DNA from: a virus
IMG/VR virus record: IMGVR_UViG_3300032006_000032
Coordinates: 1 to 36,772 of that record
Strand: one strand, 5' to 3'
Length of the DNA stretch: 36,772 bases
The notes beneath the pieces were generated by a model that searched no databases, was not told the origin of the DNA, and worked only from the letters and a program-made list of their open reading frames with translations. Position numbers and translations under genes: made by a program. This document shows positions 12,677 through 36,772 of the stretch, one piece after another (the first letter of the stretch is position 1; each line of letters starts with the position of its first letter).

Positions 12677-12680
12677 CCCG

Positions 12681-13533: not shown

Positions 13534-13540
13534 ACCCATG

Positions 13541-13609
13541 CTGCCAGGGCAGCCCGACGGATTGGGCTGTCCTGGATTTTTTCTGACAACCTGGAAAGGC
13601 GAGACAATG
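13541..13609 (+). repeat. Duplicated terminator-leader cassette, copy B
   Basis: This is the second copy of the segment at 12,681-12,754. Differences are few: one A-to-G in the stem (kept paired as G-T), loss of the bulged A, and small changes around the T-run and ribosome site. The start codon of the following gene is at the same relative place. Confidence 0.8.
13543..13583 (+). terminator. Intrinsic terminator B
   Basis: CCAGG and CAGCCCGA pair with TTGGGCTG and CCTGG around CGGA, followed by ATTTTTTC. The stem is retained despite base changes relative to terminator A, which argues that folding matters. It ends the 12,752-13,533 gene group. Confidence 0.85.
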
Positions 13610-14369: not shown

Positions 14370-15049
14370 GGGGACCGAAAAATCTGCAAGTGAGAATGAC
14401 GAAGTCACTTGCCCTGGCTATCACTGGTGGACTAGGGAACCCCTCGAAAATGCCAGGCTGTGCATGGGGAATCCCCGCTAGCACCTGCCAGCTGGGAGGG
14501 CTGCTAAAGAAACAGCACGGGACACAATGTGCAGAGTGTTACGCGGATCGTGGTCGGTACCGTTTCCAAAACGTGCAAGACCGATTGTGGACCTCGCTTG
14601 AACTGTTCCGGCTTTACGATGAGTCAGGGAGAACAGACCTGTGGGTTGAGGCAATGGTTTTTCTGATTGTCGAGTCCGGAGAGGTGTGGTTTCGCTGGTT
14701 TCATTCTGGGGACCTCCAATCTAAGGAAATGGCCCTTGCGATTTTCGAGGTGTGCCGGTTGACTCCCAAAGTCAAGCACTGGATGCCAACACGCGAGCGC
14801 CGCCACATCAACGCAGCAACCAACGAGTGCCAAGACGTCCCCGGTAATCTCACAATCCGCTGGTCCGGTTCAATGGTAGACGGGACCCCTCCAAGCTGGG
14901 CACGGAATTGTAGCGTCCTGAGTAGTGGACCCCGGAGGCATGGGAGACGATGCCCGGCGCATATGCAAGGCAACGCATGCGGTGACTGTCGTATGTGCTG
15001 GGATCAGCGTGTTACCGTTATCGAATACGAAATGAACAACGTAAAATAG
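14366..15049 (+). CDS. GP88-like cysteine-rich phage protein (227 aa)
   Basis: The protein has an N-terminal cysteine cluster C32, C41, C55, C58 in the pattern C-x8-C-x13-CxxC-Y (QCAECYADRGRYRFQ), then FRWFHSGDLQS at about 109-119, and the segment VKHWMPTRERR. A C-terminal cysteine set (CPAHMQGNACGDCRMCWD) could hold a second metal or Fe-S cluster. The order C..C..CxxCY..G.Y, then R-x-x-H-S-GD, then an 'xWxPTR' segment, matches the phage Gene-product-88 family as I know it, whose biochemical role is unknown and which is distantly likened to radical-SAM-type proteins. ATG 14,366 follows GGGAGG and overlaps the upstream stop. Confidence 0.7.
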   Translation: MRGPKNLQVRMTKSLALAITGGLGNPSKMPGCAWGIPASTCQLGGLLKKQHGTQCAECYADRGRYRFQNVQDRLWTSLELFRLYDESGRTDLWVEAMVFLIVESGEVWFRWFHSGDLQSKEMALAIFEVCRLTPKVKHWMPTRERRHINAATNECQDVPGNLTIRWSGSMVDGTPPSWARNCSVLSSGPRRHGRRCPAHMQGNACGDCRMCWDQRVTVIEYEMNNVK

Positions 15050-15065
15050 AAGGGACGGACTCCCA

Positions 15066-15152
15066 ATGAGCGGTACCGCTGTGGCCTTTTGTGTTGTTGC
15101 TGTTTCTGTGCTACTTTGTTTGATAATTGACTTGATATCGGGGGAGAATTAA
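15066..15152 (+). CDS. Possible 28-aa single-span membrane peptide
   Basis: A short frame starting MSGTAVAFCVVAVSVLLCLI and ending IDLISGEN has one strongly hydrophobic segment of about 18 residues flanked by a small polar end. AAGGG lies about a dozen bases upstream, a little far. It overlaps the promoter for the following gene. It could be a small membrane toxin or superinfection-exclusion-type peptide, or chance. Confidence 0.35.
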   Translation: MSGTAVAFCVVAVSVLLCLIIDLISGEN

Positions 15153-15159
15153 CTACAAT
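15132..15159 (+). promoter_or_regulatory. Candidate promoter of the DUF932-like gene
   Basis: TTGATA and TACAAT are separated by 16 bases on the plus strand, inside the 200-base gap before the DUF932-like gene. A start about 15,166 would leave a leader near 87 bases. The downstream sequence is GC-rich and may fold (ctggggagtggggacccctg). Confidence 0.45.
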
Positions 15160-15252
15160 CCTGGGGAGTGGGGACCCCTGTGGTTGTGGCCTGTGACCTT
15201 GCGGTGCTACCCCCAGTAATTTCAACCAGCAGGCCAACGAAAAGGTATCACG

Positions 15253-16089
15253 ATGGAAACGCCAAGATTGAACTTAATGTTGCACTGCGGAGCCTCGGCA
15301 GTCGAGACCCAGGAACTTGACAGGGTGGAACTGCCGCCAATCAAGAGAAACAGCCAGGGACACATCACCTTTCAACCCGTGTCCCATGAAACCGTCCGCG
15401 TCCGAATTAAGGAGGCACTCACCAGTTCTCTTGATGACCAACTTGCGGTCGTTGCCGAGGCGCAGGGCATGACTCACGATGGGCAACGTGCCTTTGGAAT
15501 GATGCAGGTTCACCACCCTAGTATCAACGACACCCAACGCAAGCCGGGGACCTTCACCCAGGAGGTACAGAGGTCGGGGCTGGTGATTGGCTGGAGAAAC
15601 AGCCACGACCAATCATTCGCCAGTGCCGTGGCAATGGGGGCTGGTGTCTTTGTTTGCGACAATCTCTCGTTCTGCGGTGAAGTCAAGGTGTCACGTCGGC
15701 ACACGCGACACATCGTCCGCGATTTGCCAGAGGTGATTGCCAGGGCAGTCGGACGGCTGCTCGCGGTCAATCATCGACAACAGGAATTCTTCAACCAGCT
15801 GGAGCGATTCCCGATTCACCGTCCACTGGTCAACGACACCCTGGTCGAGGCAATGCGAACGAAGGCTATTCCCAACGCATCGATCCCCAAGGTGCTTGCC
15901 GAGTATGAATCGGAAAAGCATAAGGAAATGCACGGGACCAAGAGCGCGTGGTCGCTGTTTAACGCTTTTACTGAGGTTAGCAAGAACGACACCCCGACGC
16001 TGGCAATGAAACGGACGCAGCGGTTGCACGGGGTGTTCGGCAAGTTGCTGTCGCGTGCCAGTGACCTGCACCCCAGTATAGCTGGCTAG
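15253..16089 (+). CDS. DUF932-family protein (278 aa)
   Basis: The protein contains GWRNSHDQSFASAVAMGAG (about 113-131), VFVCDNLSFCGEVKVSRRHT (about 132-151) and a helical C-terminal half (HRQQEFFNQLERFPIH; TKSAWSLFNAFTEVSK). R-N-S-HD followed by VFVCDNL-F and a RKHT-like element is the pattern I associate with the DUF932 family, which occurs in phages, plasmids and mobile elements and has unknown function. ATG 15,253 follows AAAGGTATCACG. It stands alone between a candidate promoter and a strong terminator, implying independent, probably high expression. Confidence 0.75.
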   Translation: METPRLNLMLHCGASAVETQELDRVELPPIKRNSQGHITFQPVSHETVRVRIKEALTSSLDDQLAVVAEAQGMTHDGQRAFGMMQVHHPSINDTQRKPGTFTQEVQRSGLVIGWRNSHDQSFASAVAMGAGVFVCDNLSFCGEVKVSRRHTRHIVRDLPEVIARAVGRLLAVNHRQQEFFNQLERFPIHRPLVNDTLVEAMRTKAIPNASIPKVLAEYESEKHKEMHGTKSAWSLFNAFTEVSKNDTPTLAMKRTQRLHGVFGKLLSRASDLHPSIAG

Positions 16090-17013: not shown

Positions 17014-17318
17014 TGATAAACTCTACCATGATCAGATATTGGAACACGCAAATCACCCGCTGCACGGCAATCCGCCAACTCCTGCGAGGCCAGCGGTCCA
17101 GACTCAAGGTGACGGTCAGTTTCAATGGATCAACCAACTACTTCGAACCAACCGCCGCCGCAACTGGCAGATTACAGGTCAGCATCATGAAGGGTGCTGC
17201 TGCCGAGGCTCGCATCATCATCGCTGGACTGGAAAAGGAAGGAATCGAACTGGGCGCAAGCCAGCGTCCATCAGAGGATACCCTACGCCGGGTCGAATCG
17301 ATGGAGTTGCCCGCCTAG
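17013..17318 (+). CDS. Hypothetical protein (101 aa), last rightward gene
   Basis: ATG 17,013 overlaps the upstream stop TGA, with GAGGAGGACGAG as ribosome site. The protein begins MINSTMIRYWNTQITRCTAI and includes a basic segment (LLRGQRSRLKVTVSF), then an Ala-rich helix (GAAAEARIIIAGLEKEGIEL). It is unassigned. Its stop meets the 3' end of the opposite-strand nuclease gene (4-base overlap), and a terminator hairpin follows inside that gene. Confidence 0.65.
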   Translation: MINSTMIRYWNTQITRCTAIRQLLRGQRSRLKVTVSFNGSTNYFEPTAAATGRLQVSIMKGAAAEARIIIAGLEKEGIELGASQRPSEDTLRRVESMELPA

Positions 17319-17692
17319 CCCATGTAGCGGGTAGCGTGACCAGCCCTCAGTAATTCGTCGTTCACACACACGAATTGCTGAGGGCCTTTTTCTAGCCACA
17401 ACTCGCACAACCATCTGCCCCACTTCCCCTTCTTGCGTCCCTTGTGCGTCTTGAGAAGCACCTCGCCATCCTCAGGCAGCATCTCCCTGACAAAGTCCCT
17501 TGCGGCACGACCAGCTGCCCTGGTGGCACCTCTGATCTCAGGAGTATCAACCCCCAACAACCTCAGCTTCTGGCGGTGCAAGTACACGCCAAATCCGAGC
17601 GAGACCGTCGCCGTCGCGCTGTCGCCATCGTATACGTCCTCGGGGAGGATGATCGCACGGTAGCCAAACCTATGGGGTTTTGTCCTGGACAC
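17315..17692 (-). CDS. Staphylococcal-nuclease-like (SNase) protein (125 aa)
   Basis: The protein shows YDGDSATATVSLGFG (residues 21-35), KLRLLGVDTPEIRG (42-55) and WGRWLCELWLE (91-101). These supply the metal-binding Asp pair (D22, D24), R44, E52 and R93 expected for the thermonuclease active site, so it is likely a calcium-dependent nuclease cleaving DNA or RNA. Start is GTG 17,692 after AAAGGA, inside the end of the upstream membrane gene. There is no signal peptide, so it acts inside the cell, perhaps in host DNA degradation or recombination. Its last 25 codons contain a perfect terminator for the opposite strand. It is the end of the long leftward operon. Confidence 0.85.
   Translation of the reverse strand: MSRTKPHRFGYRAIILPEDVYDGDSATATVSLGFGVYLHRQKLRLLGVDTPEIRGATRAAGRAARDFVREMLPEDGEVLLKTHKGRKKGKWGRWLCELWLEKGPQQFVCVNDELLRAGHATRYMG
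17343..17391 (+). terminator. Strong terminator for rightward module, inside opposite gene
   Basis: GCCCTCAGTAATTCG (17,343-17,357) pairs with CGAATTGCTGAGGGC (17,371-17,385) with only one G-T pair, followed by CTTTTTC. It ends plus-strand transcription while also encoding residues of the convergent nuclease gene. Confidence 0.9.
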
Positions 17693-18462: not shown

Positions 18463-19311
18463 CTACTCCTTCACCGGACGCAGTCTGATACGGATTGTTG
18501 CCCGGAAGTTGCTGCGCCAATGCTCCAGGGACTCCAGCCTCGACGAGAAGCCGGATATATCAGCAGCCGTCCCTGGCTCACCATCTCTGCCATCACGACC
18601 AGCCGGGCCAGCAGGCCCAGGTGGACCGGTAACCGGTTTGATCGACTCTAATTCTTTCAACCTGCGTTTCAATTCCAGGATCTCACGGGTCCTGTCCTTG
18701 TCACCCCAGTCTGCCCCCTCCACACGGGGGCCAAACGCCTTGTACTCCTTCAGAAAAGCAACCAGCTGCGTGTGGCTGGCAGCAAACAGTTCTTTGTCAT
18801 CCTTACCGTGACTGGCAACCCCCACCAGTACCCCACCAGCATACACCCCCGCCCCAGAATCTCCATTGCGATATTTACCACCGACCACCTTGTAACCACG
18901 ACGCATAAGCAGACGCTTATTCGACGAGTCGGTGATTTCCTGGGAACCCATGGCTTTCAGATGCTTGTGGCCATGCCTGCCATACGCGGTAATTACACCA
19001 CTAGGTGGCGATTTTTCTGGCACAACGGCCAACGATTGGCCACTGCTGGGGATCTTGAACAGTGCAAGGTCGGCCTCTTTATCGAGAGCCACCCAGGAAC
19101 CCCTGACCCTGCGTCCATCTTGAAGAACGATGTAAACCACATCGCCAATAGCACCGGCACAGTGGGCTGCGCTGACCCCGAACGTGGAACTGAGGTCCCG
19201 GTGGACGAGCGTACCACTGCATCCACCAACATCAACTGCACCCCGGGGGAGGCTTTGGGAGGGTACAGCTGAACACAGGATCAGAGCCAGCGCAGACACC
19301 ATGAGCCGCAT
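18463..19311 (-). CDS. Secreted trypsin-like serine protease with coiled-coil and collagen-like stalk
   Basis: Residues 1-20 (MRLMVSALALILCSAVPSQS) are a signal peptide, so the product is exported. The protease domain has the catalytic triad: His50 in GVSAAHCAG, Asp81 in DKEADLALF, and Ser152 in RNGDSGAGV, with C31 and C51 possibly bridging. After the domain comes a coiled coil (TREILELKRRLKELES, about 208-223), then a collagen-like run of Gly-X-Y triplets (GPPGPAGPAGRDGRDGEPG, residues 229-247), and a short C-terminal domain. ATG 19,311 follows AAGGAG. This looks like a trimeric, surface- or envelope-located protease. Proximity to a holin-like gene suggests lysis or host-surface remodelling; that is inference. 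Confidence 0.85.
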   Translation of the reverse strand: MRLMVSALALILCSAVPSQSLPRGAVDVGGCSGTLVHRDLSSTFGVSAAHCAGAIGDVVYIVLQDGRRVRGSWVALDKEADLALFKIPSSGQSLAVVPEKSPPSGVITAYGRHGHKHLKAMGSQEITDSSNKRLLMRRGYKVVGGKYRNGDSGAGVYAGGVLVGVASHGKDDKELFAASHTQLVAFLKEYKAFGPRVEGADWGDKDRTREILELKRRLKELESIKPVTGPPGPAGPAGRDGRDGEPGTAADISGFSSRLESLEHWRSNFRATIRIRLRPVKE

Positions 19312-22485: not shown

Positions 22486-24173
22486 TAGATGTGCGTCCAG
22501 TTGTTTTTCGCTAGCCGATCAATCATCCCGCTCGCCTGCTGCCTGGACAACTCCTTGGTATCGACACCGTACTTCTTCAAGAGGCGGCACTGCTTGTAGC
22601 TGGCCCCACCCTCCTTGGAGCGTCCAATCAGGGAGTCCATCAGGGTACTTGCCCCGTGGAAGGTGAGGTCCTCGATCTTGTGCCACTCGACCCCGAACTT
22701 TGCGAGTGCTTCTTTTTGCTTATGGGTCGGCAAGCGACCCTTGTGCCATCCTGGTTCACGAGATGGAACAACGTCGAGGATTCCGAAGGGGTCGGCTCGC
22801 CTCGCGTCATATCTGACAGACGTTGCCACAATTTTCCTACGCTCTTCCAGAAGTGTCGCATGCTTGACCTCCGCTTCTTCAAGTGCCCTCATCACATCGC
22901 CACCAGACTTCTCCAACTCCTCCTTCGCCAGATCGACCACCTCGTCCGGGTACTTACCACCCAGGATGTCTGTGCTCGTGATCAGACGATGCCTGCTGTT
23001 CCCGACGAAGTCCAGGATCTTGATGTTAGGCTTAGGGCTAGCCGCTATTGCGGCCTTTCTCTCATCAGGTGTCTCAAGCCTCCAGCCCTCCCCCTCGATC
23101 ACCCCTGGCAGGACCCTCGTCCCCCTCCCGCACATCTGGGCCACCAGACTACGGCTCTTGGATGGTCTACCCATGCTCAACGTCCTGACCTGGGGGCAAT
23201 CATACCCCTCGGTCAGACAACCCACGTTGACCGCGTATTGGTAGAACCCGTCCGCAAAACGCTGCAGTGCCCTCCTCCGCGACTGCTTATCCCTTGAGTT
23301 CACAACGTGCTGGTAGTTCTCACTGGCTGGGACCTTGGACACTAGGCAGAACGCACGACCGTCCATCTTGCGGTTGAAGATCTCAGCCAACCGGGAAGCC
23401 TGCTGGATTCCAGAAGCAAACACCATGCACTGGTCGTCTCCAGCCAGATCCATCGTTGGAGCAGCCACCTTGTGCAACACAACCTCTCGTGTCATCTCAG
23501 ACTGCAGGGCCTTCCCCTGAAAGTCACCACCCGTCACCTTGATGTCATTGAACTGGATGTCATCGACGGTGATGATCTCCTGCTGAATCGGAACCAGCCA
23601 TCCGTCACCAATAGCAGAGGGTCCACCAGCTGGGTCCATCAGCGGGTAATCAAACGCCACGGTCTCGAATGTCTGGCCCAGTGCCTGCTCGTCCGTTCGG
23701 TCTGGAGTGGCCGTGGCACCAAGCACCCGCAGATCCGGGTTCACACTGAAGTAGTCCAGGATGCGTTGGTACGTCTTGTTGTTCCTGACCGCGTGATGAG
23801 CCTCATCGATGATGATCAGCCCCACCTCCATTGGGTCGGGGAACGCGCGTTTGATCCGCTTCTCCCGGTACAGGCTATCCTTTGAAGCAAAAGTCATCTT
23901 GCTTCTTGCGTGGCTCGACCGGCGGAACTCGCCCATCTCGATCTCGCCGTGCTCGCCAGTCTTCTGGTGCCACCTCTCCCAAGGTTGCCAGACCAACTCC
24001 TCTCGATGAGCCAGGACAAGCACCTTGCCCTGTGGCCACTGGTCAGCGATCTCCAGAAACGTCTGGGTCTTCCCTGTCCCGGTAGGCATTACCATCAATG
24101 CCGACATGAAATTATTCAATGCCGAGATCGCATCAACAGAACACTTTATCTGGAAATCACGCAGGTAATTCAC
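22485..24173 (-). CDS. SF2 DEAH-box helicase with tandem C-terminal motif
   Basis: Helicase motifs are clear: MPTGTGKTQTF (Walker A, 29-39), VLVLAHREEL (Ia), IIIDEAHHA (II, 120-128), LGATATPDRT (III, 151-160), CLTEGYDCPQ (V) and VAQMCGRGTRVL (VI). This matches ResIII/UvrB-like DNA translocases used in phage replication or recombination. The last 80 residues hold two related units: HKQKEALAKFGVEWHKIEDL and YKQCRLLKKYGVDTKELSRQ, each followed by an AS-x(2)-D-x-L helix, perhaps a DNA-binding or docking module. ATG 24,173 overlaps the ParB-like stop as ATGA, so production is coupled. Confidence 0.9.
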   Translation of the reverse strand: MNYLRDFQIKCSVDAISALNNFMSALMVMPTGTGKTQTFLEIADQWPQGKVLVLAHREELVWQPWERWHQKTGEHGEIEMGEFRRSSHARSKMTFASKDSLYREKRIKRAFPDPMEVGLIIIDEAHHAVRNNKTYQRILDYFSVNPDLRVLGATATPDRTDEQALGQTFETVAFDYPLMDPAGGPSAIGDGWLVPIQQEIITVDDIQFNDIKVTGGDFQGKALQSEMTREVVLHKVAAPTMDLAGDDQCMVFASGIQQASRLAEIFNRKMDGRAFCLVSKVPASENYQHVVNSRDKQSRRRALQRFADGFYQYAVNVGCLTEGYDCPQVRTLSMGRPSKSRSLVAQMCGRGTRVLPGVIEGEGWRLETPDERKAAIAASPKPNIKILDFVGNSRHRLITSTDILGGKYPDEVVDLAKEELEKSGGDVMRALEEAEVKHATLLEERRKIVATSVRYDARRADPFGILDVVPSREPGWHKGRLPTHKQKEALAKFGVEWHKIEDLTFHGASTLMDSLIGRSKEGGASYKQCRLLKKYGVDTKELSRQQASGMIDRLAKNNWTHI

Positions 24174-25096
24174 TTGTCACTCCTCAGTCCCTCGGGAAGT
24201 GCGTTGTACTGATCGCGATGCATCCACCCCAGGTGGTCGCACCCATCGCAACCTTTACCCTTACAGATGGGACAGACTGCATGCGGCTTGGCGGCAATCA
24301 GTGCATTTGACACGTTGGTGCAGTCTGCCTCGACTGCCCGTAGGGGGATGAGTTCGCCCCCCTCGGACTCTGAAATCACCCTTATAGAAGCCTTGATCTC
24401 GCCAGCCTTGTAGATCAGACCCCTCATGGCCCGTGCCACGTCAAAGGTAGCCTTCAGTTCATCGGGGACGGGGTTGTCCAGTCCATCAACAGTACCTCGC
24501 CTGTCCCTTTGGACAGCCTTGTGCCCCTTGGAGACACTGCGGTTCAGCTTGGACCTCAAGTCTTCCGCCTTGGCGTCGTCGCCACTGACTTCCGCCTCAT
24601 CGATAGCCTCGATAACAGCCTGGGCCTTTTCAGCAGTGCGGTAGTCCATCCCAACCGCCTGTGCGGCAATCGTCTTAGCCTTGCCCTTCTTGTCTGTTTC
24701 TTTCAGTTTTTCATGGTGCAGCTTTTTCCGTTCCAAGGAAAGGCGTTGCTCAACCTCAAGAAGCATCGAGTACTCACGAGCACGCTGCTCGTTCGTTTTG
24801 TCCCGCTGGCGGTTGGACAGGATGAGCATGCGGACTGCAGAATTGTCGTCCTTCACCTCATCCTGCATGATGACAGGAACTTCCTTCATCTTCAGCATCC
24901 TCGCCGCGTTCATACGGCGGTGGCCCGAGATGACCACGGACTTACCGTTGTCGTCCCATGCCAGCACAGGCTCAAGGACACCAAGGGACTTGATTGACTC
25001 CAGGAACTCGTCATCAGGAGCGTCCCGGTAAATCTTTTGATTGAACTCGTGAGCCTGAAGCTCAAACGGGTCCATGAAAATCACATCATGCGTCAT
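24170..25096 (-). CDS. ParB/sulfiredoxin-like protein with C-terminal zinc knuckle
   Basis: The N-terminal domain (DEFLESIKSLGVLEPVLAWD, then VVISGHRRMNAARML) has the ParB/Srx signature GHRRxxAA at about residues 58-65. A long helical, basic centre (RLSLERKKLHHEKLKETDKK) and an HTH-like segment (AKTIAAQAVGMDYRTAEKAQ) may bind DNA. The C-terminus has two CxxC pairs in CPICKGKGCDGCDHLGW (275-291), like a DnaJ-type zinc knuckle. It probably binds DNA to mark or load the helicase encoded next. ATG 25,096 overlaps the previous stop as ATGA, preferred to GTG 25,105. Confidence 0.8.
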   Translation of the reverse strand: MTHDVIFMDPFELQAHEFNQKIYRDAPDDEFLESIKSLGVLEPVLAWDDNGKSVVISGHRRMNAARMLKMKEVPVIMQDEVKDDNSAVRMLILSNRQRDKTNEQRAREYSMLLEVEQRLSLERKKLHHEKLKETDKKGKAKTIAAQAVGMDYRTAEKAQAVIEAIDEAEVSGDDAKAEDLRSKLNRSVSKGHKAVQRDRRGTVDGLDNPVPDELKATFDVARAMRGLIYKAGEIKASIRVISESEGGELIPLRAVEADCTNVSNALIAAKPHAVCPICKGKGCDGCDHLGWMHRDQYNALPEGLRSDK

Positions 25097-25725
25097 GCTA
25101 TCCACTCTCTTTCAATTGCTGATACCAGATCGATAATCTTTTTGGCCATCAAGGGGGTGCAGCAGTCCAAAAGACTTCTTGCCTCAGAAATCGCCCCGGC
25201 TCCGATGGCCATTTCCATAGCCTCTACAAAGTTATCCCCAGCCTCCTCCATCGCAACCTGCTCGCTGTGCTCCCTCCTCTCCTTGTTCATCTGGATCGCA
25301 CGCCTGGACTGAGCCTTGCGTCGTTCTTCCGTCCAGCCTGCAGCCCCCCGCTCCTTTGCGGGTGTTGGCTTTTTCTTGGAGTTGTACGATGGGTCATGCG
25401 CCAACTCCAAGGCATGGTCAGCCAAAGCCCTGACTATCTGCCTCACCGTGTAACGCCCTACTCCATCCACCCTCTGCAGCTGACTCGGAGTCGTGTTGCA
25501 CAGCTGGGCAACAGTATGAACCCCAAGCGACCAGCAGGCTTTCTTTGACCTCTTGTCCAGGCGAAGATCATCCAGTGTCAGGACGTGCATCGCCCTGTTC
25601 TCCTCCTTTTCTGGAGGCTCTTCCTTTTTCTCAGGCTCCTCAATCCCCTGGGCGTTGTAATTCTTTAACACTTGTCGCCTGTGCCGAAGCTCGTCCTCAC
25701 GTTTCTGCAGTTCTGTACCACTCAT
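25093..25725 (-). CDS. Protein with RNA polymerase alpha C-terminal-domain-like fold
   Basis: Residues 48-108 (LTLDDLRLDKRSKKACWSLG, then VHTVAQLCNTTPSQLQRVDG, then VGRYTVRQIVRALADHALEL) align without gaps to the RNA polymerase alpha C-terminal domain. Arg59 corresponds to the DNA-contacting Arg265 of the E. coli subunit and the NxG turn keeps its Gly. The rest is a charged helical N-terminus (ELQKREDELRHRRQVLKN), a Lys-rich linker, and a helical C-terminus with a single CC (SLLDCCTPLMAKKIIDL). There is no polymerase-assembly domain. It may bind UP-element DNA or compete with the host subunit. The stop overlaps the ParB-like start and its own start overlaps the Rad52-like stop. Confidence 0.75.
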   Translation of the reverse strand: MSGTELQKREDELRHRRQVLKNYNAQGIEEPEKKEEPPEKEENRAMHVLTLDDLRLDKRSKKACWSLGVHTVAQLCNTTPSQLQRVDGVGRYTVRQIVRALADHALELAHDPSYNSKKKPTPAKERGAAGWTEERRKAQSRRAIQMNKERREHSEQVAMEEAGDNFVEAMEMAIGAGAISEARSLLDCCTPLMAKKIIDLVSAIEREWIA

Positions 25726-26600: not shown

Positions 26601-27083
26601 CTACCTGATCCGAAGCGATGTGCTCTTCACTAGTTCGCATCCCGGGATCAACTCCCCTTCCTTCAAGGAATTAAGAATCTCGGACTTGAGAACCTTGACG
26701 TCCATCTCCAGGTATCTCGTGGGGATCTGCTCCTGATCAACGATTTCCACCCTGCCTGGGGTCTCCTGAACACGCACCGTGAACAGGTCGTCCTTCACCA
26801 AGTCCATCTCCATCCCGACCATTTGGTCGTGGACATAGCCCTTCAGCCAATCCCGCTTGTTCTTGAATGACTTCTGCTTCCCTTTCAGCCGATCGATCTC
26901 AGCACCCACTGCATCCACCGAGGAGTCCAACTCCTTGATGATCTTCACACAGTTGACCACCTTTTCCTTGAAGCTGCCGCCAAGGTGCTTGAGTTCCTCC
27001 AGCAACTCATGGCTGAGACCCCCCTCCTCAGTAGCCAACCGAACCAGATTGTCTAGCTTTTCCGGGTATTCATACAACTTCAT
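26601..27083 (-). CDS. Siphovirus Gp157-like protein
   Basis: Start ATG 27,083 follows GAGGAGG inside the csrA 3' end. The protein (160 aa) begins MKLYEYPEKLDNLVRLATEE, has a central coiled coil (DSSVDAVGAEIDRLKGKQKS), the segment KRDWLKGYVHDQMVGM, and a C-terminal VRVQETPGRVEIVDQEQIPT-Y. This is the arrangement of the Gp157 family, found in phage recombination modules beside annealing proteins; the specific activity is unclear. It overlaps csrA by 14 bases and precedes the Rad52-like gene by 42 bases. Confidence 0.85.
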   Translation of the reverse strand: MKLYEYPEKLDNLVRLATEEGGLSHELLEELKHLGGSFKEKVVNCVKIIKELDSSVDAVGAEIDRLKGKQKSFKNKRDWLKGYVHDQMVGMEMDLVKDDLFTVRVQETPGRVEIVDQEQIPTRYLEMDVKVLKSEILNSLKEGELIPGCELVKSTSLRIR

Positions 27084-27246
27084 CGAGTTCTGCCTCCTCA
27101 CGGGTCAACTCGTAACGCAAAATCTTCACGTTGTCAGGGGCGTCGACTCCCAGTCGGACGAAGTTGCTTCGCAACTCCAAGATCGTTACCGTGATGTCGC
27201 CATCGATATCGATCTTCTCTCCCTCTTTCCTGCTTAGCACCAGCAT
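27070..27246 (-). CDS. csrA: Phage-encoded CsrA (RNA-binding translational regulator)
   Basis: The 58-residue product begins MLVLSRKEGEKIDIDGDITV and continues TILELRSNFVRLGVDAPDNV and KILRYELTREEAELDE. This matches bacterial CsrA/RsmA along its full length: the N-terminal MLxLxRKxGE strand, the GxDAPxxVxIxRxEL segment with the RNA-contacting Arg (R44), and five-strand dimer pattern. CsrA dimers bind GGA in leaders and control translation and mRNA stability. AAGGAGA lies eight bases before ATG 27,246. It is the first gene of the long leftward early operon with its own promoter. The in-frame reading upstream is chance, not an extension. Confidence 0.93.
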   Translation of the reverse strand: MLVLSRKEGEKIDIDGDITVTILELRSNFVRLGVDAPDNVKILRYELTREEAELDEVV

Positions 27247-27369: not shown

Positions 27370-27395
27370 TCTGCTTAGTACATTTTGTGCTAAGC
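27370..27395. repeat. 26-bp palindromic element, copy 2
   Basis: This is the reverse complement of the copy at 11,947-11,972, with no mismatch over 26 bases. It starts on the last base of the stop codon of the polyvalent gene and lies about 62 bases upstream of the csrA -35 box. GCTTAG and CTAAGC arms flank CACAAAATGTA. Confidence 0.8.
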
Positions 27396-30300
27396 TACTG
27401 GCTGTAGATGCCCTTGGCTCGCCGGTATCTGCGGAGTCCTTCTCGCATCTTTTCGCTGGAGGCGTTTTCGATCCCTGGGATACCGCGTATGAGCAGGTTG
27501 CGTGCTGCTTCTTTTTGCTTGAAGAGTTGCTTCCTGATCTCTTCAGCCTCTTCAATGTCTCCCTCCAGATAGGCCCGGTTCATCAGCATTGTGTCCCGCT
27601 CTCTCTCCCTGAGGGCACGCTCCATCTGGAATGGCTCGCGGTTCATCATCATCGTCTCGACATTACTGACCGCGAGGTCGGCCAGTTCGGAAATCTTCTT
27701 GGTGATGGCCCTTCTTTTCTTTTCGTCTTTTGTCATTGCGCGGATGTGAAACATCAGGCTCATTGCCTTGGTTGCGTCTGTCAGCAGCAGCCTCTCGTGC
27801 CTTTGTGCTGATGTCTCGGGGTTTTCATCTGAACCTGATCGCATAAACGCCTGTGCGTGAAGAGCGTAAAGTTTGTCCACGGGCTGAGGTCGAGTACCCA
27901 GTTTCCCGCCAGTCCTGAACACTCTCCCTAGCAGTGGCCAGTCGCTTGCCGATTGGTACTTCCTCTTGGTAAACAACTCGTCCAGTGACTGTGCAGACAG
28001 CAGTAGGTCTCGCAGTCCCGGGCCAGCAACAGATGTTGCGATGTGGTCGATCTGCTGTGGTGACTGCTCGAATATGCGTCCCAGCCACTTTGCTGCTGTT
28101 GTTGTGTACTCGTTGAATTGCTCGTGCCTGGGCCTTGCGTCTGCTCGGCCCGTTGCCTGGAACCGTGGAGACACGATAGGCGTGTTCCAATAGCTCTTGG
28201 TGTTGAGTCCGATCTCCTGGGCTGTCTTTGCGAGGACTCCAGCTGCATTGGTTGGTGCCCATGTCATTCCAGTCGGACCCTCTCGCAGCGGGAGGTCGAC
28301 TGGACTGTGGTTCTCGGCCATGGATAGTGCGAATTCACCAAGCTGCTCCCAGTTGATGATTTCATCCGGCTCAGTCCTGTAGGCTGCATCGGCAAGGGCG
28401 ATGGCCACCCCGGCGAACAGTTGCCCAGAGTCGTGAGACAGTGGGATCTGAACCACTTCCTCCACCCCGTTGACATCGACTGGGACGAAGAGGTAGAGGA
28501 ACTTCCTCTGTATGTCCATCTTCTTCCACCAGTCCTCGTCCCGGTAGGTCGACCACATTCCCAGGGCAATGGTTGCCATGTGGGCACCTCTCCAAGCGTA
28601 AACCAGCGGCCTTCGCCTTGCTGCTCTTGCAGCTGAGCGTGGTCCCTGAATAGTTGCGTTGAAGAATGGTGTTATCTGGTTCCAGAAACGTGCAAAAGAT
28701 CCAGCTGCTGTGAAGTCCACAGTCACCTGCTTGCCAGCCACCATAAGTTTCTGGGCAATCTCGGGTGTTAGCTCTTTGCTTGGGTCCCAGTTCAGGTCCC
28801 TCGCGACGTTCTTGATTTCAGTTATTCTTGCTGCCGATTCCGGGAACTGGATCAGGCGTCCAAGAAAATCAACAAACGTGTTCCAGTCCCTCCAAAGGTG
28901 CTGGGGTGTTTTCAGTGGCTCCTCTATGTACCGGACAAGCCGCCTGCCGATCCTCTTGGACTCCAGGGCGTCTCTCGCGGCTTGCTTCACAAGGTTGCTG
29001 CCCTGGCTCAAGGGGCGTGCCATTTCCCCACCAAGCCTCAACCAAAGGTCGCTGTAGCCTGACTTGTATCGACCCCCGGTTACTGCGGACAGCAACTCCT
29101 CGCCGTAAGTCCACATGTAGTCAATGAACAGAGGGAATGCGTACCGGCTTGAGATGGTGTTCAAGTACAGGGTCTGGAAGTCGCGAAGCGGGTTGGTGAT
29201 AAGTCCAAAGCTGGCGCGGAACCCGACTGTCCCGGCCCGAAACGCCCGTGCGGGGGTTCTGAACGTGAGGTTGAACATTCCGTACAGCAGGGCGTTCTGT
29301 CGGAAGAAGCTCAGCCCGTCAGCACTCATGCTGGAAAGTGCGTTGTAGATACCGGCGTTCATCCTGTACCACTTGATCTGCTTCCCGACGCGAATAGGAA
29401 TGATGGGCTTCCCATTCTTAGGGGTGATCGCGGCACCGAAAAATTGAATCATCTGGTTTTCAAAATCAATATCGTTGATTTCCAGCTTGTCCCCGCTACC
29501 TGACACCAGGAACACTTCTTCCCCTACTGACTTCAGGTTTCTGAGGTGTTTCATCACGCTCTTGGTCAGGCTCTCCAGCGACCGGACAGCCTTGAGTTCG
29601 TTTGTTCGGACCTCCTCAAAGATCAGGTTGCCGAAGCCAAATACGCCCTTACCTTCCTCGTCCAGGGAATGCTTGTTTCGCTGGACTTGCATGCTCATCG
29701 CGACCATGGTGTCGATCACCTTGCGATTGTGTGCGGCAAGGACCAGTCGCTCGGCGTTTGCAATCGATGTCTGTATCGGGTCGATGAACTGGCCACTTTG
29801 CGAGCCTCGCAATGCGTGAAGGACATCGGTGTAGTTTTCCGGTTGTACGCCAGTCATCTGCATGACGACTGAGTTCATCCTCCTTTGGTATCGCTGGAGC
29901 GGAACGTAGTCGCCCCGTGTTTCTTCACGCTTCCTGATGCTTCTCACCAGATCCGCCATGAACTTGTCCGCGCCCGCGACGTAACTCAGGACCCCGTCGT
30001 TCCAGTCGTAAACAATCTCGGCGGCAGCACCAAAATTGCTATGCTCCTCTTCCAGCTTATCGATGATGAACCCAGCAAGCTCGGGGGTCAGGGGTGTCTC
30101 CAGCGGTTTTTCTTTGTCCATCATCACTCTAAGGCTTCTGCGAGCCAGGAGGTAGATGGCAAAGTCCCAGTATTCCTTGGGGTTCAGGAGTTCTTGGACC
30201 TTGCGTAGTGCGGGAATCTGCTTTTTGTTCTGATCAAGCAGCGGGTTGCGATCGAAATTGATCATCCCCTCGTTGACCATGTATCGAACCACTGCTGAGT

Positions 30301-33300
30301 GCTGCAGCCTGAGTGCTGTTGCCCAGTAGTAGGGGGATTTACTTTGGTCTAGCTTTTCACCGGTCGTGTTTTCGTACTGCTTTTCAAACATCGCGAGCGG
30401 GTGAAGGGTGTCTACCAGACCCCTCATTATCGCATTTGGTGACATTGAAATAGCGTCTCGGAACCTGTCAAACCTTGCTTCAAATGATGCAGGGTCTACA
30501 GCCATGGCTCCCCTGGCCCACTTCAACGCACCCTGTTCCTGGAATCTTGTGACCATCGCGGACAGGACATCCAGTTCCCTGGCCGCTGCTTTGTGCTTGG
30601 ACAGGACGTTGTTCTGCCACCACTCCAGCATGTTGGGGGCGACTTTATCCAGAAGTGCCCTGTTGGATATATAAATCCTGATGAACTCGGCAAACCCCTC
30701 GCCACGGTATCCGCCTGCCGGTTTTTTGTCGCCGTAAAGATTTTCTCCCAGGTTCTCTAGTTCTCGTATCGCTGAGGCACCGACCCGTGCTTCCGTCCAA
30801 AGCTGCTTTCTCACTTCACGGCCAAGCGAGTCCCGTGTGATTCCTGTTCCAAGCAGGAGTGTTTCGATCGCATGCCCGATTTCATGGAACGCAGTCATCG
30901 CGTTGTCTGCTTCCCTGACTTTGATCAACTGGTCAACGAACCAGTGAACACCCCGCACGTTTGGCCCTTTTTGTGCGATAGGGTCGCCCATGATCATGGG
31001 GTATTCGCGTGTGGCCCCCTTGTATCCGAACAGTCTCGGTAGCAATGCCAGTCGCCTGATGATCTTCCATGCCGCGAGTGGTCTCCCAGTGTTGGACTGA
31101 GGGTCTCGCAGATGCCACATCCTGTGTTGTGCCGGGACCGCCCCTGCCGGAACGTCCGTTTCTCCTCCAGGAAGCAACTGCCCCGGGTCGTCGCGGGTGT
31201 ATCCAGCAGAATCCTCAGACTCATTCAGGTGGTGCTCGATCGCCTCTTTGATCGGCAGTTCCACCTCCGCGAAATGTGCAGTGCGGTCGATCGCAGCTTT
31301 TTCTTCGCTCCAACCGAGCGTTTGCTGTATGCCTTCCCAGTCCATCCGGGACATGAACACCTCCACCCTCTCCCCTTCCTCGTTGGTGAAGTCCGTGACC
31401 CATTTGAAAAACTTCTGAAGATTTTCAACCCCGCCTCTGTCTGCGTGTGCAGCTAGTGCAGCCTTGGAAAACTTCACGAGCCATATCGCAACATTCCCTT
31501 CGTTATGAAATTCCGCATGCTCGACATGGCCTGCCTCCTGCCCCTCAAACACAGACAGTCCGGATAGCTCCACGAGAGCCTCGGAGTCCGCTGTGCGAGT
31601 GAAGTGGCTTGCCAGTGACGCTGTGATGGGTGGCAACTCTTGCTCAAATTGCGTCACTTCCTCCCCGGAGTATTCATTAGCGTCCAGCAGTTCCATGGCC
31701 CTTTGCCGAACATCATCGCGACTGTGCTGGCTGGACGATTCGGCACCTTGCTGGAATGTGTACTCGATCCAAATCTGCAACCGAGCGATCGCCCTCTCTT
31801 CGACTGTGGTCGCCTCACCAAACGCATCGGGCATGCCCGCTGCGTCCAGGTAGTCTATTCGGGCCAATTGCTGGGCTATGTTTCGAGCGAGGCTCTCAAG
31901 TTCCCCTTCCTCGGATTGCTCAACGTGGCTTTGGCTCTCGACATCGGAAGCCTTCTCGCCCTTCTGCAGCTGGTCGGTCTCCTCCAGCACCTCGTTCATG
32001 TTGGATTCGTTGTCAAGTTCAGCAATCATCTGGGCGATTTCGATCATCGTCGCAACGTCGCTATCCCCGATCATGTCGTACCAGGAAGCGTCTTTGTCCT
32101 CCCGGAAATGCTCCATAACCTTCTCGGCAACCGGAGTGTGTCGTTCTACTTGGTCGGGGTGGTGTTCCGAGGCGAGCATCAAATATTGACCAATATATTG
32201 ACGCAGTCTTTCGCGGTATATCTCGTCAAGCTCTTCAGCCTCGACCATCGGTCGTGTTTTTCTTTCCGCTTTCGCGACATTGTCCATCCCGATGACGAAA
32301 ACTTGCGATTGTCCAAACAGCCTTCGGAGTTGCTTTACGTTCCCCTCGTAGTCCGGGTGCCCTTTTTTTGGCCAATAATCGGCTGCGGACGGGAAGTTGA
32401 TAATGATTGCGTCGTGGCCGTTTGCGGTTGCGTATTCCCGCAGACCCAACCCCAGAGCTTCACTTTCTGCGTGTGTCCCAGGATCGACGAGATAGAGGTC
32501 CGAAGAAGCGACTTGTGCAGCAAGTCCCCTGAGTTGGTTGCCGGTTGTCACTACCAGCGGGTTCTCCAGCACGACTGTCGTCTCAGTGACATCCGGGCCA
32601 AACATTGCGGCATGGTTCGCATTTTGGGCGTAGTACCTTCCGTCGGAACCCAGTAGCGGCGAGGCTTCCCGGAATCCGTATGGCTGGTTTGGATTGACAC
32701 GCCCTTTCCCGTGGTACACAAGGATCGAGACCTTTTCTCCCGTGTCCTCGCTTGTTATGTCCCACGCAACTCCATATCCGTCGTCAACAAAGACATTCTC
32801 TACCTTTACCTCGCGGGCATCCTCTTCCTTTGCCTCCTGCGTCGGGACCTGGGTCGCCTTCTCGGGTGCAGGCTTATCGATCTCCGGGGATTGCTGGTTT
32901 CCTGCCTCGCGTGGCCCGCCAAATACGGCACCAACTCGCTCCTTGATGTCGTATTTCCTAAGTGCTTCAGCAATGACTTTGGAGTGCGGATCTGTCGCGC
33001 TCGCAAACATTCCTTCAGCCTCCGATATCAGTGCCGATTTCACGCCTTTCATCTGCCCCCTGAAGACCCTCGGCTTGCCGCCTATTTGCAGAAGCAGGTC
33101 CAGCATCATCCTGCCAGCCGGGGAGATCTGATCCTTCGGGTCCACCTCCATCCCGGGGAGAACCGGTGACGCAAGGAACTCGTCAGCCAGCCCTACGGTA
33201 TCTCGGTCTGGGTGAAGCCCAATCCAGACAGCAGCCTCGGCTAACGCTGGCCCTATGTCGGCTGAAGGTACGGCACGCTGTATAGCCAGCACTTCTGTCA

Positions 33301-36300
33301 CAGCACCCTGCAGAGCCTTTTTCAGGTACTTTGCATTGTCACCGATGCTTTCAATAGAATCGACATCGAAAGCCTGCAGGACAAACATATTCTCAATAAG
33401 TTCCTGACCGGCGATGGTCAGGTGTCCATTCTCGAAGTAGCTTTCAACAGATGCGGGGTTCAAGGCGTTCTTTACTCTTTGTAAAAACTCTTTCCCAGCC
33501 TTGTTTGAAAGCATTTTGACGAGCGTGTCGCCAGAGTCCCACGGGAGCGCGTTGACCAGACCTTCTTCACCAACAAGGTAAGACAGACTTGCGGCAGTCC
33601 TTACTGGGGTCTCGGAGTACGTCGCAGATTGATTGCCCGCTCTTGCAAAATCGTGCGCTTTCTCTTTTGTCGGGTCCATTTCCACGACACGAACCAGCAC
33701 CGGCTGTTTCATCGCGTCGATGTCAGACTCCTTGAGTCCAAACGTACTCGCATTCTGTCGCAGGGAATTGGTGTACCAGTCCCCGTAGGCCAGCTGGAGA
33801 GCCATCACGCGACCGTTCCCGTTGATGACAACCCCTCCCGGGGAAACCGAGGAGGGGCCACTGGTTGCGTCCGGGTGCAGGCTTATGAAGTATGCAGCGA
33901 TTTTCTCGTTGGCTTGATCCTCGACCTTGTTTACGTCGTAACCTGCTTCATGTGCACGAGGCTGGAGGTTCGCTGGGTAGTTGCCTTCCGGTGTTGCCAC
34001 AATGCCTGGGCCGACCCTCTTGACCTTGTGGCTGGCCGTGATGTCACTCAACTCCATAAGGGCGTATGTGGCATCGACGTTGTCGGAGCCTGGAACGACG
34101 ATCGTCGTCGCACTGCCCTTGATCATCTCCCGGGCTGGCTCTTCCGCCTCGGGGGCTTGACCCAGTGCCTCATCGTAAAGAGTATCTTGGCCAGCATCCC
34201 TGGGATTCAGAACTGGTGGAGCCTCTCTCTGCCCTGGGGCCAGATCCTTGACTCGCGAGCCGAAACTAAATAGCAGGTCGACGGGAACCTCGATATCACC
34301 ATATTCCCTAAACATCGCCAGTGCACGACCCCTGCCCTCATGCCCGCTGACTTGCATTGGCACCAGTGGTTTGCCGTCCTCGTCCTCAACATCAACAGTT
34401 AGCCAGGGAGGGGCAACCGCTTCCCCGGAAGCAATCCGCTTGCGGATAGCCTCGACATTTTCTAGGTTGATCCGCGCTGGCAACAGTTTCATGAGGTCCG
34501 AGAGCATCATCGTTGTGCTGATGCCTTTGCCGGTTTCCCCACGGTGCATCTCTAGTTGGTTGGCTTGGTCTGGCACATAACCAAATCCCCCGCGATCAAA
34601 AACCGGACCTTCCGCCGCCTCGGGGGCTGGGGTGGGCTTTCTGACCATCCAGTCGGCCACGTCTTTCTCGAAGCCAAACCGCTCGTAAAGCTGGCGAAGT
34701 TTCTTTTTCGGAATCTTTCCCCAATTGGTGTCCAATGGCACGGCATGCAGGCCCAGCGTCACCTGAAACTCGTCGGCCAGTGTTGCCAACGATGCCACGA
34801 TGTCGCTGCCCATCCCCGTTTTGAACTTGCCTTCAAGTGCCAAAATTTGATCGACGGTGACGCTGTTCTCGTCAGCACCCTTAAGCAACCTCACGACGAA
34901 TGTTACTTTTTCGCCATCACGTTCTGTCGTAATCAATCTTGCGTTGGGATCGTCTGGATGATCCATTCCCGCCTTATTGAATTGCTTAAGGAACTTGTCG
35001 CTCGGACCTTCCGCCGCCTCGGGGGCTGGGGCTGCTTCAGTCTCGCCCGTTATCCCAAGCTCCCCTGCGACTGAAGTAGACGACTGCTGGGCCTTGTGTA
35101 TCTGTTTGGCCATGTCGAGGCCGGGGATCTGGTTTTCCTCCCGTTCGTAAGCCCCCATCACCTTTTCAGTAAGGCTTCTCGCCTCGGGTCCCGCCTCGGC
35201 AACGTCAAGGAAGTCTGCAATTGCCCTGGGGTTGAAGGACAATGGAAGCTGCAGTTTCCCGTCGCTTAGGGACGGAAGATCATTAGGGGAGTATCCTCGG
35301 TTTGCGTACCACTGAGGGTGCTGCTGGTAAAGTGCGGAATTGACGACTGCTTGCGCTGCCGTTAGGGCTTGGCCTTCTAGGGGAACCTCTTCCAGCCACT
35401 GCTTTTCCGATACCACTTCGTCACGAGGCCCAGCAGTTTGAAGAAAATCCCTTGCATCATTTAGCAGAGAAGCAGCGTCTGTGTACTCTTTACCGCGAGC
35501 AAACAGCCTGATGTAGTCCTCAAGTCCAGGGTCCCCTTCCGCTTGCCCTAACGCCTCGTTGATAATTGCTTCAGCGGTTTTCGCCCCGGGTGCGGCAGCA
35601 GGAGCCGCCGGTGCAGGTGCAGGAGTGGCGGCAGGGGCTGGTGCCGGGGTGGCTGCAGGGGCCGCTGGTGCTGGAGCAGGGGCCGCTGGTGCTGGGGCTG
35701 GCTTGCGACCTATTTTGGTTCGTCCTTCTATAGCAGACCGCTGGTTCTGCAGCTTTTTTAGACGGTCCTTCCAGGCGTTTAGCTGCCGGGAGCGTTTTTT
35801 ACCGAGGCCCTTCCCGGGCTTCCTTTTGGCTTCCAGGCCGTCGATCTTCTTTTGCAGATCGTCTATTTTCGATGACAACTCGTCGATCTGTTCCTGTGGT
35901 GTAGCTGCAGGTGCTGCCGCTGGTGCTGGTGCTGGTGCAGGTGCGGCAGGTGTCGCCGTGGGTGCTGGTCTCCATGCCACAACAGAACCAATCGGCAGTG
36001 TCGCCCCCTCCTCCGTCTCCCAGTCGCCTCGTTTATTTTTCTGTTTCAGCGTGAAAACTTGCGGGGTTATCTGGGGTGTAATCTCCCCAGTTCCTTGCAA
36101 TGGGTAGCCTAATACCTGTGTCCCGGGAGTCGCGACCGACTTCAGCCAAGTTCCCAAGCCACCCCTTCCGCCTATCCACTCGTTTTCGCTGCTGCCTACA
36201 AACTCAGCGATTGAGGGCTGCACCCCCAGGTTGGACAAAATGTTTGTGGAAGAGACTATGAAAGTTTGATTCGTCTTTGGGTCGATGGCTCTCCAGAAAA

Positions 36301-36772
36301 CTGGCCTGTTATCGTCGTCACGCTCTCCTGCCAACGGGTTGATGAGAACCAGTTCTCTTTCGCCCTCGAACTGCATCCCGCCCGTGGCAACAACCCTAAG
36401 TCCCCCGTGCGCAAATACGGGTTTCGGTGGTGCGCCTTCCTCCCCCGGGCCACTCGGTGGCTTGGGTTCAGCAAACATTTTCTCAATCTGCTCAGGCAGA
36501 CCTTCGAGTATAGACTCGACTTCCGGTCGCAGGAGGTCTGCAAACCATTGTCGGTGCACCCTGTCGTCAGGATCAAACGGTTCTGGTTTTGTGGTTCGCT
36601 CCTTGGTCTCCGGGTCGACCCGGGTGATGAGCACTTCCTCCCCGGTCTCCGGGGCAAACGACTCGGGACCCATTTTCGCGGCTATTTTTGCGACCCTGTT
36701 GTATTTTGTACGCGACGGGTCCTCCAGGAACGCCTCAAGGCGATCAAGGTTGTTTTTGCCAAACCACGCCTG
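27395..36772 (-). CDS. Giant polyvalent protein, N-terminus beyond right edge (over 3,100 aa)
   Basis: The frame is open from the right edge to TAG 27,395, at least 3,125 codons; an ATG at 36,673 is internal, since upstream codons (FGKNNLDRLEAFLEDPSRTK) read on in frame. Numbering from that ATG: Ala/Pro-rich linkers near 240 and 325-365 around a coiled coil; a GNAT-acetyltransferase-like domain (560-680, YERFGF); a ParB-like HEGRGR domain (700-800); a DdrB-type ParB domain (850-1000, INGNGRVMAL); an ADP-ribosyltransferase-like domain (1310-1465, ILVYHGKGR); a zinc metalloprotease (HEIGH at 1930-1934, EGFAEF near 1992-1997); and a large helical C-terminal region like the LPD38-type polyvalent tails. 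Such proteins are packed in virions and injected. Functions are inferred from motifs. Confidence 0.85.
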   Translation of the reverse strand, partial: QAWFGKNNLDRLEAFLEDPSRTKYNRVAKIAAKMGPESFAPETGEEVLITRVDPETKERTTKPEPFDPDDRVHRQWFADLLRPEVESILEGLPEQIEKMFAEPKPPSGPGEEGAPPKPVFAHGGLRVVATGGMQFEGERELVLINPLAGERDDDNRPVFWRAIDPKTNQTFIVSSTNILSNLGVQPSIAEFVGSSENEWIGGRGGLGTWLKSVATPGTQVLGYPLQGTGEITPQITPQVFTLKQKNKRGDWETEEGATLPIGSVVAWRPAPTATPAAPAPAPAPAAAPAATPQEQIDELSSKIDDLQKKIDGLEAKRKPGKGLGKKRSRQLNAWKDRLKKLQNQRSAIEGRTKIGRKPAPAPAAPAPAPAAPAATPAPAPAATPAPAPAAPAAAPGAKTAEAIINEALGQAEGDPGLEDYIRLFARGKEYTDAASLLNDARDFLQTAGPRDEVVSEKQWLEEVPLEGQALTAAQAVVNSALYQQHPQWYANRGYSPNDLPSLSDGKLQLPLSFNPRAIADFLDVAEAGPEARSLTEKVMGAYEREENQIPGLDMAKQIHKAQQSSTSVAGELGITGETEAAPAPEAAEGPSDKFLKQFNKAGMDHPDDPNARLITTERDGEKVTFVVRLLKGADENSVTVDQILALEGKFKTGMGSDIVASLATLADEFQVTLGLHAVPLDTNWGKIPKKKLRQLYERFGFEKDVADWMVRKPTPAPEAAEGPVFDRGGFGYVPDQANQLEMHRGETGKGISTTMMLSDLMKLLPARINLENVEAIRKRIASGEAVAPPWLTVDVEDEDGKPLVPMQVSGHEGRGRALAMFREYGDIEVPVDLLFSFGSRVKDLAPGQREAPPVLNPRDAGQDTLYDEALGQAPEAEEPAREMIKGSATTIVVPGSDNVDATYALMELSDITASHKVKRVGPGIVATPEGNYPANLQPRAHEAGYDVNKVEDQANEKIAAYFISLHPDATSGPSSVSPGGVVINGNGRVMALQLAYGDWYTNSLRQNASTFGLKESDIDAMKQPVLVRVVEMDPTKEKAHDFARAGNQSATYSETPVRTAASLSYLVGEEGLVNALPWDSGDTLVKMLSNKAGKEFLQRVKNALNPASVESYFENGHLTIAGQELIENMFVLQAFDVDSIESIGDNAKYLKKALQGAVTEVLAIQRAVPSADIGPALAEAAVWIGLHPDRDTVGLADEFLASPVLPGMEVDPKDQISPAGRMMLDLLLQIGGKPRVFRGQMKGVKSALISEAEGMFASATDPHSKVIAEALRKYDIKERVGAVFGGPREAGNQQSPEIDKPAPEKATQVPTQEAKEEDAREVKVENVFVDDGYGVAWDITSEDTGEKVSILVYHGKGRVNPNQPYGFREASPLLGSDGRYYAQNANHAAMFGPDVTETTVVLENPLVVTTGNQLRGLAAQVASSDLYLVDPGTHAESEALGLGLREYATANGHDAIIINFPSAADYWPKKGHPDYEGNVKQLRRLFGQSQVFVIGMDNVAKAERKTRPMVEAEELDEIYRERLRQYIGQYLMLASEHHPDQVERHTPVAEKVMEHFREDKDASWYDMIGDSDVATMIEIAQMIAELDNESNMNEVLEETDQLQKGEKASDVESQSHVEQSEEGELESLARNIAQQLARIDYLDAAGMPDAFGEATTVEERAIARLQIWIEYTFQQGAESSSQHSRDDVRQRAMELLDANEYSGEEVTQFEQELPPITASLASHFTRTADSEALVELSGLSVFEGQEAGHVEHAEFHNEGNVAIWLVKFSKAALAAHADRGGVENLQKFFKWVTDFTNEEGERVEVFMSRMDWEGIQQTLGWSEEKAAIDRTAHFAEVELPIKEAIEHHLNESEDSAGYTRDDPGQLLPGGETDVPAGAVPAQHRMWHLRDPQSNTGRPLAAWKIIRRLALLPRLFGYKGATREYPMIMGDPIAQKGPNVRGVHWFVDQLIKVREADNAMTAFHEIGHAIETLLLGTGITRDSLGREVRKQLWTEARVGASAIRELENLGENLYGDKKPAGGYRGEGFAEFIRIYISNRALLDKVAPNMLEWWQNNVLSKHKAAARELDVLSAMVTRFQEQGALKWARGAMAVDPASFEARFDRFRDAISMSPNAIMRGLVDTLHPLAMFEKQYENTTGEKLDQSKSPYYWATALRLQHSAVVRYMVNEGMINFDRNPLLDQNKKQIPALRKVQELLNPKEYWDFAIYLLARRSLRVMMDKEKPLETPLTPELAGFIIDKLEEEHSNFGAAAEIVYDWNDGVLSYVAGADKFMADLVRSIRKREETRGDYVPLQRYQRRMNSVVMQMTGVQPENYTDVLHALRGSQSGQFIDPIQTSIANAERLVLAAHNRKVIDTMVAMSMQVQRNKHSLDEEGKGVFGFGNLIFEEVRTNELKAVRSLESLTKSVMKHLRNLKSVGEEVFLVSGSGDKLEINDIDFENQMIQFFGAAITPKNGKPIIPIRVGKQIKWYRMNAGIYNALSSMSADGLSFFRQNALLYGMFNLTFRTPARAFRAGTVGFRASFGLITNPLRDFQTLYLNTISSRYAFPLFIDYMWTYGEELLSAVTGGRYKSGYSDLWLRLGGEMARPLSQGSNLVKQAARDALESKRIGRRLVRYIEEPLKTPQHLWRDWNTFVDFLGRLIQFPESAARITEIKNVARDLNWDPSKELTPEIAQKLMVAGKQVTVDFTAAGSFARFWNQITPFFNATIQGPRSAARAARRRPLVYAWRGAHMATIALGMWSTYRDEDWWKKMDIQRKFLYLFVPVDVNGVEEVVQIPLSHDSGQLFAGVAIALADAAYRTEPDEIINWEQLGEFALSMAENHSPVDLPLREGPTGMTWAPTNAAGVLAKTAQEIGLNTKSYWNTPIVSPRFQATGRADARPRHEQFNEYTTTAAKWLGRIFEQSPQQIDHIATSVAGPGLRDLLLSAQSLDELFTKRKYQSASDWPLLGRVFRTGGKLGTRPQPVDKLYALHAQAFMRSGSDENPETSAQRHERLLLTDATKAMSLMFHIRAMTKDEKKRRAITKKISELADLAVSNVETMMMNREPFQMERALRERERDTMLMNRAYLEGDIEEAEEIRKQLFKQKEAARNLLIRGIPGIENASSEKMREGLRRYRRAKGIYSQ
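34604..34632 (-). repeat. 29-bp direct repeat in linker of polyvalent gene, copy 1
   Basis: The 29 bases (cggaccttccgccgcctcgg and nine more) encode an Ala/Pro/Glu linker (APEAAEGP). The identical run appears at 35,003-35,031. A third, shorter relative is at about 34,141-34,165. It joins the GNAT-like and ParB-like domains. Confidence 0.7.
35003..35031 (-). repeat. 29-bp direct repeat in linker of polyvalent gene, copy 2
   Basis: This is the second identical copy of the 29 bases at 34,604-34,632, encoding the APEAAEGP linker just before the GNAT-like domain. The two copies flank that domain and would allow its loss or exchange by recombination. Confidence 0.7.

Follow-up and report, generated by a model that had tools for sequence, protein, structure and literature searches.

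The window, the 36,772-base virus record analysed here at its full length, carries a giant gene whose product is very probably one of the internal virion proteins that a short-tailed phage ejects, composed of a conserved tail and interchangeable cargo. Its domains place it, as a further member, among the polyvalent proteins described by Iyer et al. in 2017 (PMC5512222), and the added interest lies in a cysteine signature that extends across cargo types and in a conserved phage with replaced cargo. The open reading frame, its domains, the exclusion of cysteine, the gene order in relatives and, from one genome pair, the replacement of cargo were all read from sequence.

Open frame and domain content

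On the minus strand, 3,125 stop-free codons run from position 36772 to 27395 (27395..36772), with the plus-strand reading of the same interval holding many stops. An earlier note had described a single 9.4-kb open frame of more than 3,100 residues here, which is borne out, leaving strand and truncation unstated and overlooking both the LPD38 domain and the complete absence of cysteine. The right edge of the window cuts the gene, and the contig therefore lacks both the upstream gene and the 5′ end of the giant gene itself. In a sister phage the protein counts 3,301 aa from its first possible start, and its residue 427 pairs with residue 2 here, indicating that about 425 N-terminal residues are probably missing, for a probable full length of around 3,550 aa. 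A chance frame is excluded by two Pfam matches above cut-off, ddrB-ParB at residues 897-1030 (33683..34084; PF18763, 4.8e-15) and LPD38 at residues 2746-2937 (27962..28537; PF18857, 1.1e-12), both phage-only marker domains according to PMC5512222; these and all further features of the giant lie on the minus strand. The six motifs quoted in the note were all found (YERFGF at residue 696, HEGRGR at 811, INGNGRVMAL at 983, ILVYHGKGR at 1350, HEIGH at 1963 and EGFAEF at 2025), and the chain does contain Ala/Pro linkers and, towards the C-terminus, a long tail. By sequence and composition the linkers flank a charged coiled-coil-like segment (residues about 273-400; 35573..35956), and a stretch at residues 3-111 (36440..36766) aligns weakly with sister residues 428-548. 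A DNA search of named phages with 16.8 kb of the window gave no match and PADLOC returned no result.

The polyvalent-type GNAT acetyltransferase domain (residues 633-714; 34631..34876) was detected with a GNAT family profile run against 2,606 sequences (i-E 1.9e-8), the match including the acetyl-CoA loop as well as the terminal YxRFGF and so agreeing with the earlier reading of YERFGF as GNAT-like. Direct searches with this slice were weak, giving Pfam Acetyltransf_7 (E 0.24) and PDB 6iuf (AcrVA5; E 0.06), both of them GNAT. A weak tblastn match leads from the region to a Vibrio phage giant, whose segment passes the Pfam Acetyltransf_1 cut-off; relatives of that segment occur in DarB-like giants and one N4-type RNA polymerase. 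Since the match to AcrVA5, the top PDB match of the slice, is not significant, no anti-CRISPR role is claimed.

The DdrB-ParB-like reading of INGNGRVMAL is upheld by the Pfam match, with the ParB motif RDRSR of relatives aligning to RAHEAG in the window giant. A second ParB domain, claimed around HEGRGR (residues 735-866; 34175..34570), proved unsupported, as this region was matched by no Pfam ParB family, by no PHROG and, in tblastn, by no phage sequence, and a ParB profile scored on it no better than on shuffled sequence. Profile matches extend to GNAT, DdrB-ParB, LPD38 and, by profile-profile comparison, the ART-like segment, and not to the second ParB. Close relatives of the GNAT/HEGRGR region were not found in viral contigs, and the AlphaFold2 models of this region (mean pLDDT 43) and of the ART region (49) fell short of the quality that a fold search needs.

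The segment at residues 1349-1515 (32228..32728), read earlier from ILVYHGKGR as ART-like, is probably an ART-PolyVal-like domain. It matched one other giant, L123 (30%, 6e-6), where it stands before the ParB domain rather than after it as in the window giant. Compared by hhalign, this pair matched a set of ten polyvalent segments chosen for having a YHG motif (91.7%, E 8e-7), and both of the two tested among those ten match Pfam ART-PolyVal; the window segment itself has no PF18760 match over the Pfam cut-off, its similarity being profile-profile only. YHG and GRYYA are retained, with H and Y present, while Gln seems to occupy the third catalytic position in a family whose catalytic residues we take to be of the H-Y-E type, and the enzymatic activity of the segment is doubtful. 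A joint ART-MPTase alignment put the L123 ART segment wrongly and was discarded, and the 'Cake' PDB matches obtained with the ART slice seem to be artefacts of the kind that designed repeat proteins give.

With GNAT, DdrB-ParB, a zincin metalloprotease and probably ART in one chain, the description of a phage-type polyvalent protein stands, and the giant resembles those of Iyer et al. (PMC5512222) in repertoire (GNAT, ART, DdrB-ParB, zincin MPTase, LPD38), size, phage origin and proposed role. The DarB-like podophage giants of Skulduggery, KpnP_ZX1 and Ruegeria 45A6 share with it the GNAT family, giant size and the cysteine-free state. The methylase and helicase modules of the related Vibrio 1.232.O giant were not found in it. 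The virion RNA polymerase (vRNAP) of N4 (Schitoviridae), a 3,500-aa ejected protein with one HExxH at residue 2228, is likewise cysteine-free, and the Xanthomonas PB119 vRNAP carries the GNAT family of the window giant, in which no RNA polymerase was matched by Pfam or PHROGs and no BLAST match to N4 vRNAP was obtained.

Conserved tail, variable cargo and the protease between them

Residues about 2100-2950 (27923..30475) form a conserved tail module that is present without this cargo in Pelagibacter phages, where it aligns at ~22% identity with proteins of 1,229-1,253 aa. HTVC204P gp40 (1,253 aa) and HTVC034P gp44 (1,229 aa) are like the window giant in this ~800-residue tail, in genome position and in having no cysteine, but they are without HExxH and have no alignment to its GNAT, ParB and ART regions. 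Among 37 non-redundant complete relatives, the segment before the tail ranges from 286 to 3,065 aa, which together with the short tail-only forms identifies the tail as the constant part and cargo as optional. As read from these alignments, cargo is added at the N-terminus of the tail, and the tail alone occurs at the position of T7 gp16.

The sister phage (G001; 44,283 bases) is co-linear with the window and holds the whole giant gene, so allowing a comparison within a single genome pair. Major capsid proteins (MCP) are 98.9% identical and the other left-going proteins mostly 87-100%, with a few at 60-82%. By contrast, only patches of the giants can be aligned, with identities of 47% across the metalloprotease and tail, 41% across the ParB region and 30% across 120 residues at the start, with no alignment to the sister giant for residues about 112-818 and part of 1560-1670 matched by phmmer (E 3.5e-6). 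The csrA-like gene of 58 aa directly downstream of the giant (27070..27246, minus strand), placed likewise in the sister, is also diverged, while the gene that follows is 96% identical. In this one pair it looks like a segment with the giant and csrA has been exchanged between phages, its upstream edge lying beyond the contig. Fast change of cargo is expected if cargo answers host defences. The solo ParB_N gene at 24170-25105 (minus strand; 5 Cys) is also fast-diverging, being 67% identical in the sister as against 88-98% for its neighbours.

The zincin-type metalloprotease domain (residues about 1900-2030; 30683..31075) lies at the seam of cargo and tail. The zinc protease seen earlier in HEIGH and EGFAEF is corroborated by an HExxH...E[GA]xAEF pair in 11 divergent giants including that of the window, spaced by 43-63 residues and always directly before the tail; at motif level, HExxH and the downstream Glu keep all zinc ligands. 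Near the seam, HExxH occurs in 8 of 25 relatives with more than 500 aa before the tail and in none of the 12 with less (Fisher one-sided p ~0.03, computed by hand, for relatives sampled by homology and not independently). With the motif in 8 of the 25 cargo-bearing relatives, the metalloprotease is not a general requirement; in this sample of sequences it accompanies some cargo.

Release of domains by the metalloprotease was proposed in 2017 (PMC5512222). Cutting of the chain, after entry or during assembly, would let GNAT, ParB and ART act as free proteins while the tail stays with the ejection machinery, and we consider it possible though not the favoured course. The intact motif directly before the tail in all 11 giants, its absence from all 12 short, cargo-poor forms and the processing of P1 DdrB prior to packaging (PMC5512222) are in keeping with cutting, but the motif is missing from 17 of 25 cargo-bearing giants, the homology-drawn sample weakens the association, and N4 vRNAP with its MPTase is packaged uncut, that region being needed for encapsidation (PMC5512222). 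The state of the same domains bears on whether the giant might be a purely structural ejection protein, its enzyme-like domains degenerate and serving only as bulk or DNA-channel parts. Conservation of the tail rather than of the cargo, the seeming lack of the catalytic Glu in the ART-like domain and the departure of the ParB motif from RDRSR would suit a structural role; however, GNAT keeps its GxG acetyl-CoA loop, the metalloprotease keeps its zinc ligands, and bulk leaves unexplained why unrelated giants repeatedly contain the same enzyme families, making this reading quite improbable.

Exclusion of cysteine

The window giant has no cysteine in 3,125 residues, for which the chance is ~1e-16 at the 1.17% of the other window genes. 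Across 63 non-redundant giants of at least 1,000 aa from viral contigs, cysteine makes up 0.023% of residues against 0.68% in other ORFs, an approximate baseline as the background ORFs came from a mechanical caller, and 46 of the 63 have none (0.003 expected). In the gene directly upstream of the giants (-1) the figure is 0.043%. The ejected proteins T7 gp15 and gp16 and N4 vRNAP, gp51 and gp52 are without cysteine, as are the giants of Y3 (3,421 aa), BA3 (2,631), ctype202 (2,480), Ruegeria 45A6 (3,912), KpnP_ZX1 (3,867), Skulduggery (3,695), PB119 (3,547), Vibrio 1.185.O (2,514) and Vibrio 1.232.O (3,292). The giant of the sister (L091) has two cysteines only, residues 914 and 919 in the motif VVCTGYACMV, which lie inside the replaced cargo and are possibly catalytic.

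Composition, or a general avoidance of cysteine by virion proteins, might produce the same pattern irrespective of passage through the periplasm. Several window head genes also have no cysteine, and other ORFs of at least 600 aa run at a lower rate, 0.48%; even at that rate, zero in 3,125 has a chance of ~3e-7, and most MCP, tail and fibre proteins encoded by these genomes contain cysteine. The same folds, moreover, carry it as solo genes: in six of these phages the acetyltransferases annotated as solo genes total 884 aa with 12 Cys, as against none in the fused GNAT domains, and the solo ParB of the window has 5 Cys in 311 aa and the fused DdrB-ParB domain none. P1 DarB (L272, 10469-17236), virion-borne in a contractile-tail myophage, keeps 9 Cys despite its delivery with the virion, whereas Sit, the 1,140-aa tape measure of the same phage, is free of cysteine. 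Explanation by composition or general avoidance is therefore unlikely. The 9 Cys of P1 DarB also mean that the cysteine-free signature is not universal for injected proteins. Similarly, ddrB-ParB proteins in three Chloroflexota contigs (L247, L249 and L231) have 7-16 Cys and no tail-profile match; the domain is thus also present outside giants of this kind and is not by itself a sign of ejection. Taken together, neither being virion-borne nor the domain alone explains the lack of cysteine. Among 301 Chloroflexota genomes (phylum by record title) ddrB-ParB was found in 4, and the host-envelope comparison is too small to carry weight.

Cysteine-free N4-like vRNAPs have been published with the same cell-entry argument (PMC3715699; PMC2784036; PMC3915230), as has the cysteine-free status of Zobellviridae giants (PMC10747016). 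The word 'cysteine' is absent from the main text of PMC5512222, where exclusion of cysteine from polyvalent proteins is not described, and no class-wide statement of it for these proteins was found in the open-access literature searched. From the counts given here, cysteine exclusion as known for N4-type vRNAP and Zobellviridae is extended across cargo types. On balance we lean towards cysteine exclusion being a class-wide mark of podophage proteins that cross the oxidising periplasm, for all polyvalent cargo types and not only for RNA polymerases, which would be usable to read the ejected proteomes of uncultured phages and would mark the giant as a cargo locus exchanged wholesale between phages that are otherwise near-identical.

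Gene position and probable delivery with the virion

The upstream context of the window giant is borrowed from the co-linear sister, where terL is followed in turn by portal, MCP, tail-region genes, a cysteine-free 861-aa gene, the giant, csrA, an annealing-protein gene and a helicase gene. In HTVC204P, HTVC034P, ctype202 and Y3 the homologue comes after tail, acetyltransferase and internal-virion-type genes, the gene position corresponding to that of T7 gp16. In the Bcep22-like phage JC1 the DarB-like gp69 (4,515 aa) yielded 51 unique peptides from CsCl-purified virions, and CsrA is encoded in the virion module with one CsrA peptide recovered from virions (PMC9144972). JC1 gp69 is likened to the window giant by its DarB-like class and gene place. 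From gene position, the cysteine signature and the packaged JC1 gp69 we infer that the window giant is packaged and delivered by the virion.

Several other features of the window were noted. A sequence of 26 bases with the core GCTTAGCACAAAATGTACTAAGC, itself imperfectly palindromic, occurs in opposite orientation at 27370-27395, just after the giant gene, and at 11947-11972, near the terminase region, and is operator- or hairpin-like. A 59-base direct repeat, 88% identical, lies in the rightward small-gene region (12680-12738 and 13540-13597), and rightward genes at 14366-16089 (plus strand) match GP88 and DUF932. On the minus strand are a Staphylococcal-nuclease-like gene (SNase; 17315-17692) and, at 18463-19311, a trypsin-like peptidase domain with a short GPP/GPAG stretch of collagen-like type after it.

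In the mechanism that we propose, the C-terminal LPD38-type tail would be a conserved packaging and translocation module encoded at the T7 gp16 gene position, with interchangeable cargo, here GNAT, DdrB-ParB and the ART-like domain, fused before it and the metalloprotease at the junction. The chain would be packed in the head and pass in unfolded form through the tail and then the oxidising periplasm, the exclusion of cysteine preventing disulfides en route; its targets in the early phase of infection would be host proteins or the incoming DNA. The contrast of conserved tail and replaced cargo points to the likely site of counter-defence functions. As the proteins that enter the cell with the DNA are known for few phages, cysteine count and gene position together offer a testable sequence signature by which such proteins may be recognised.
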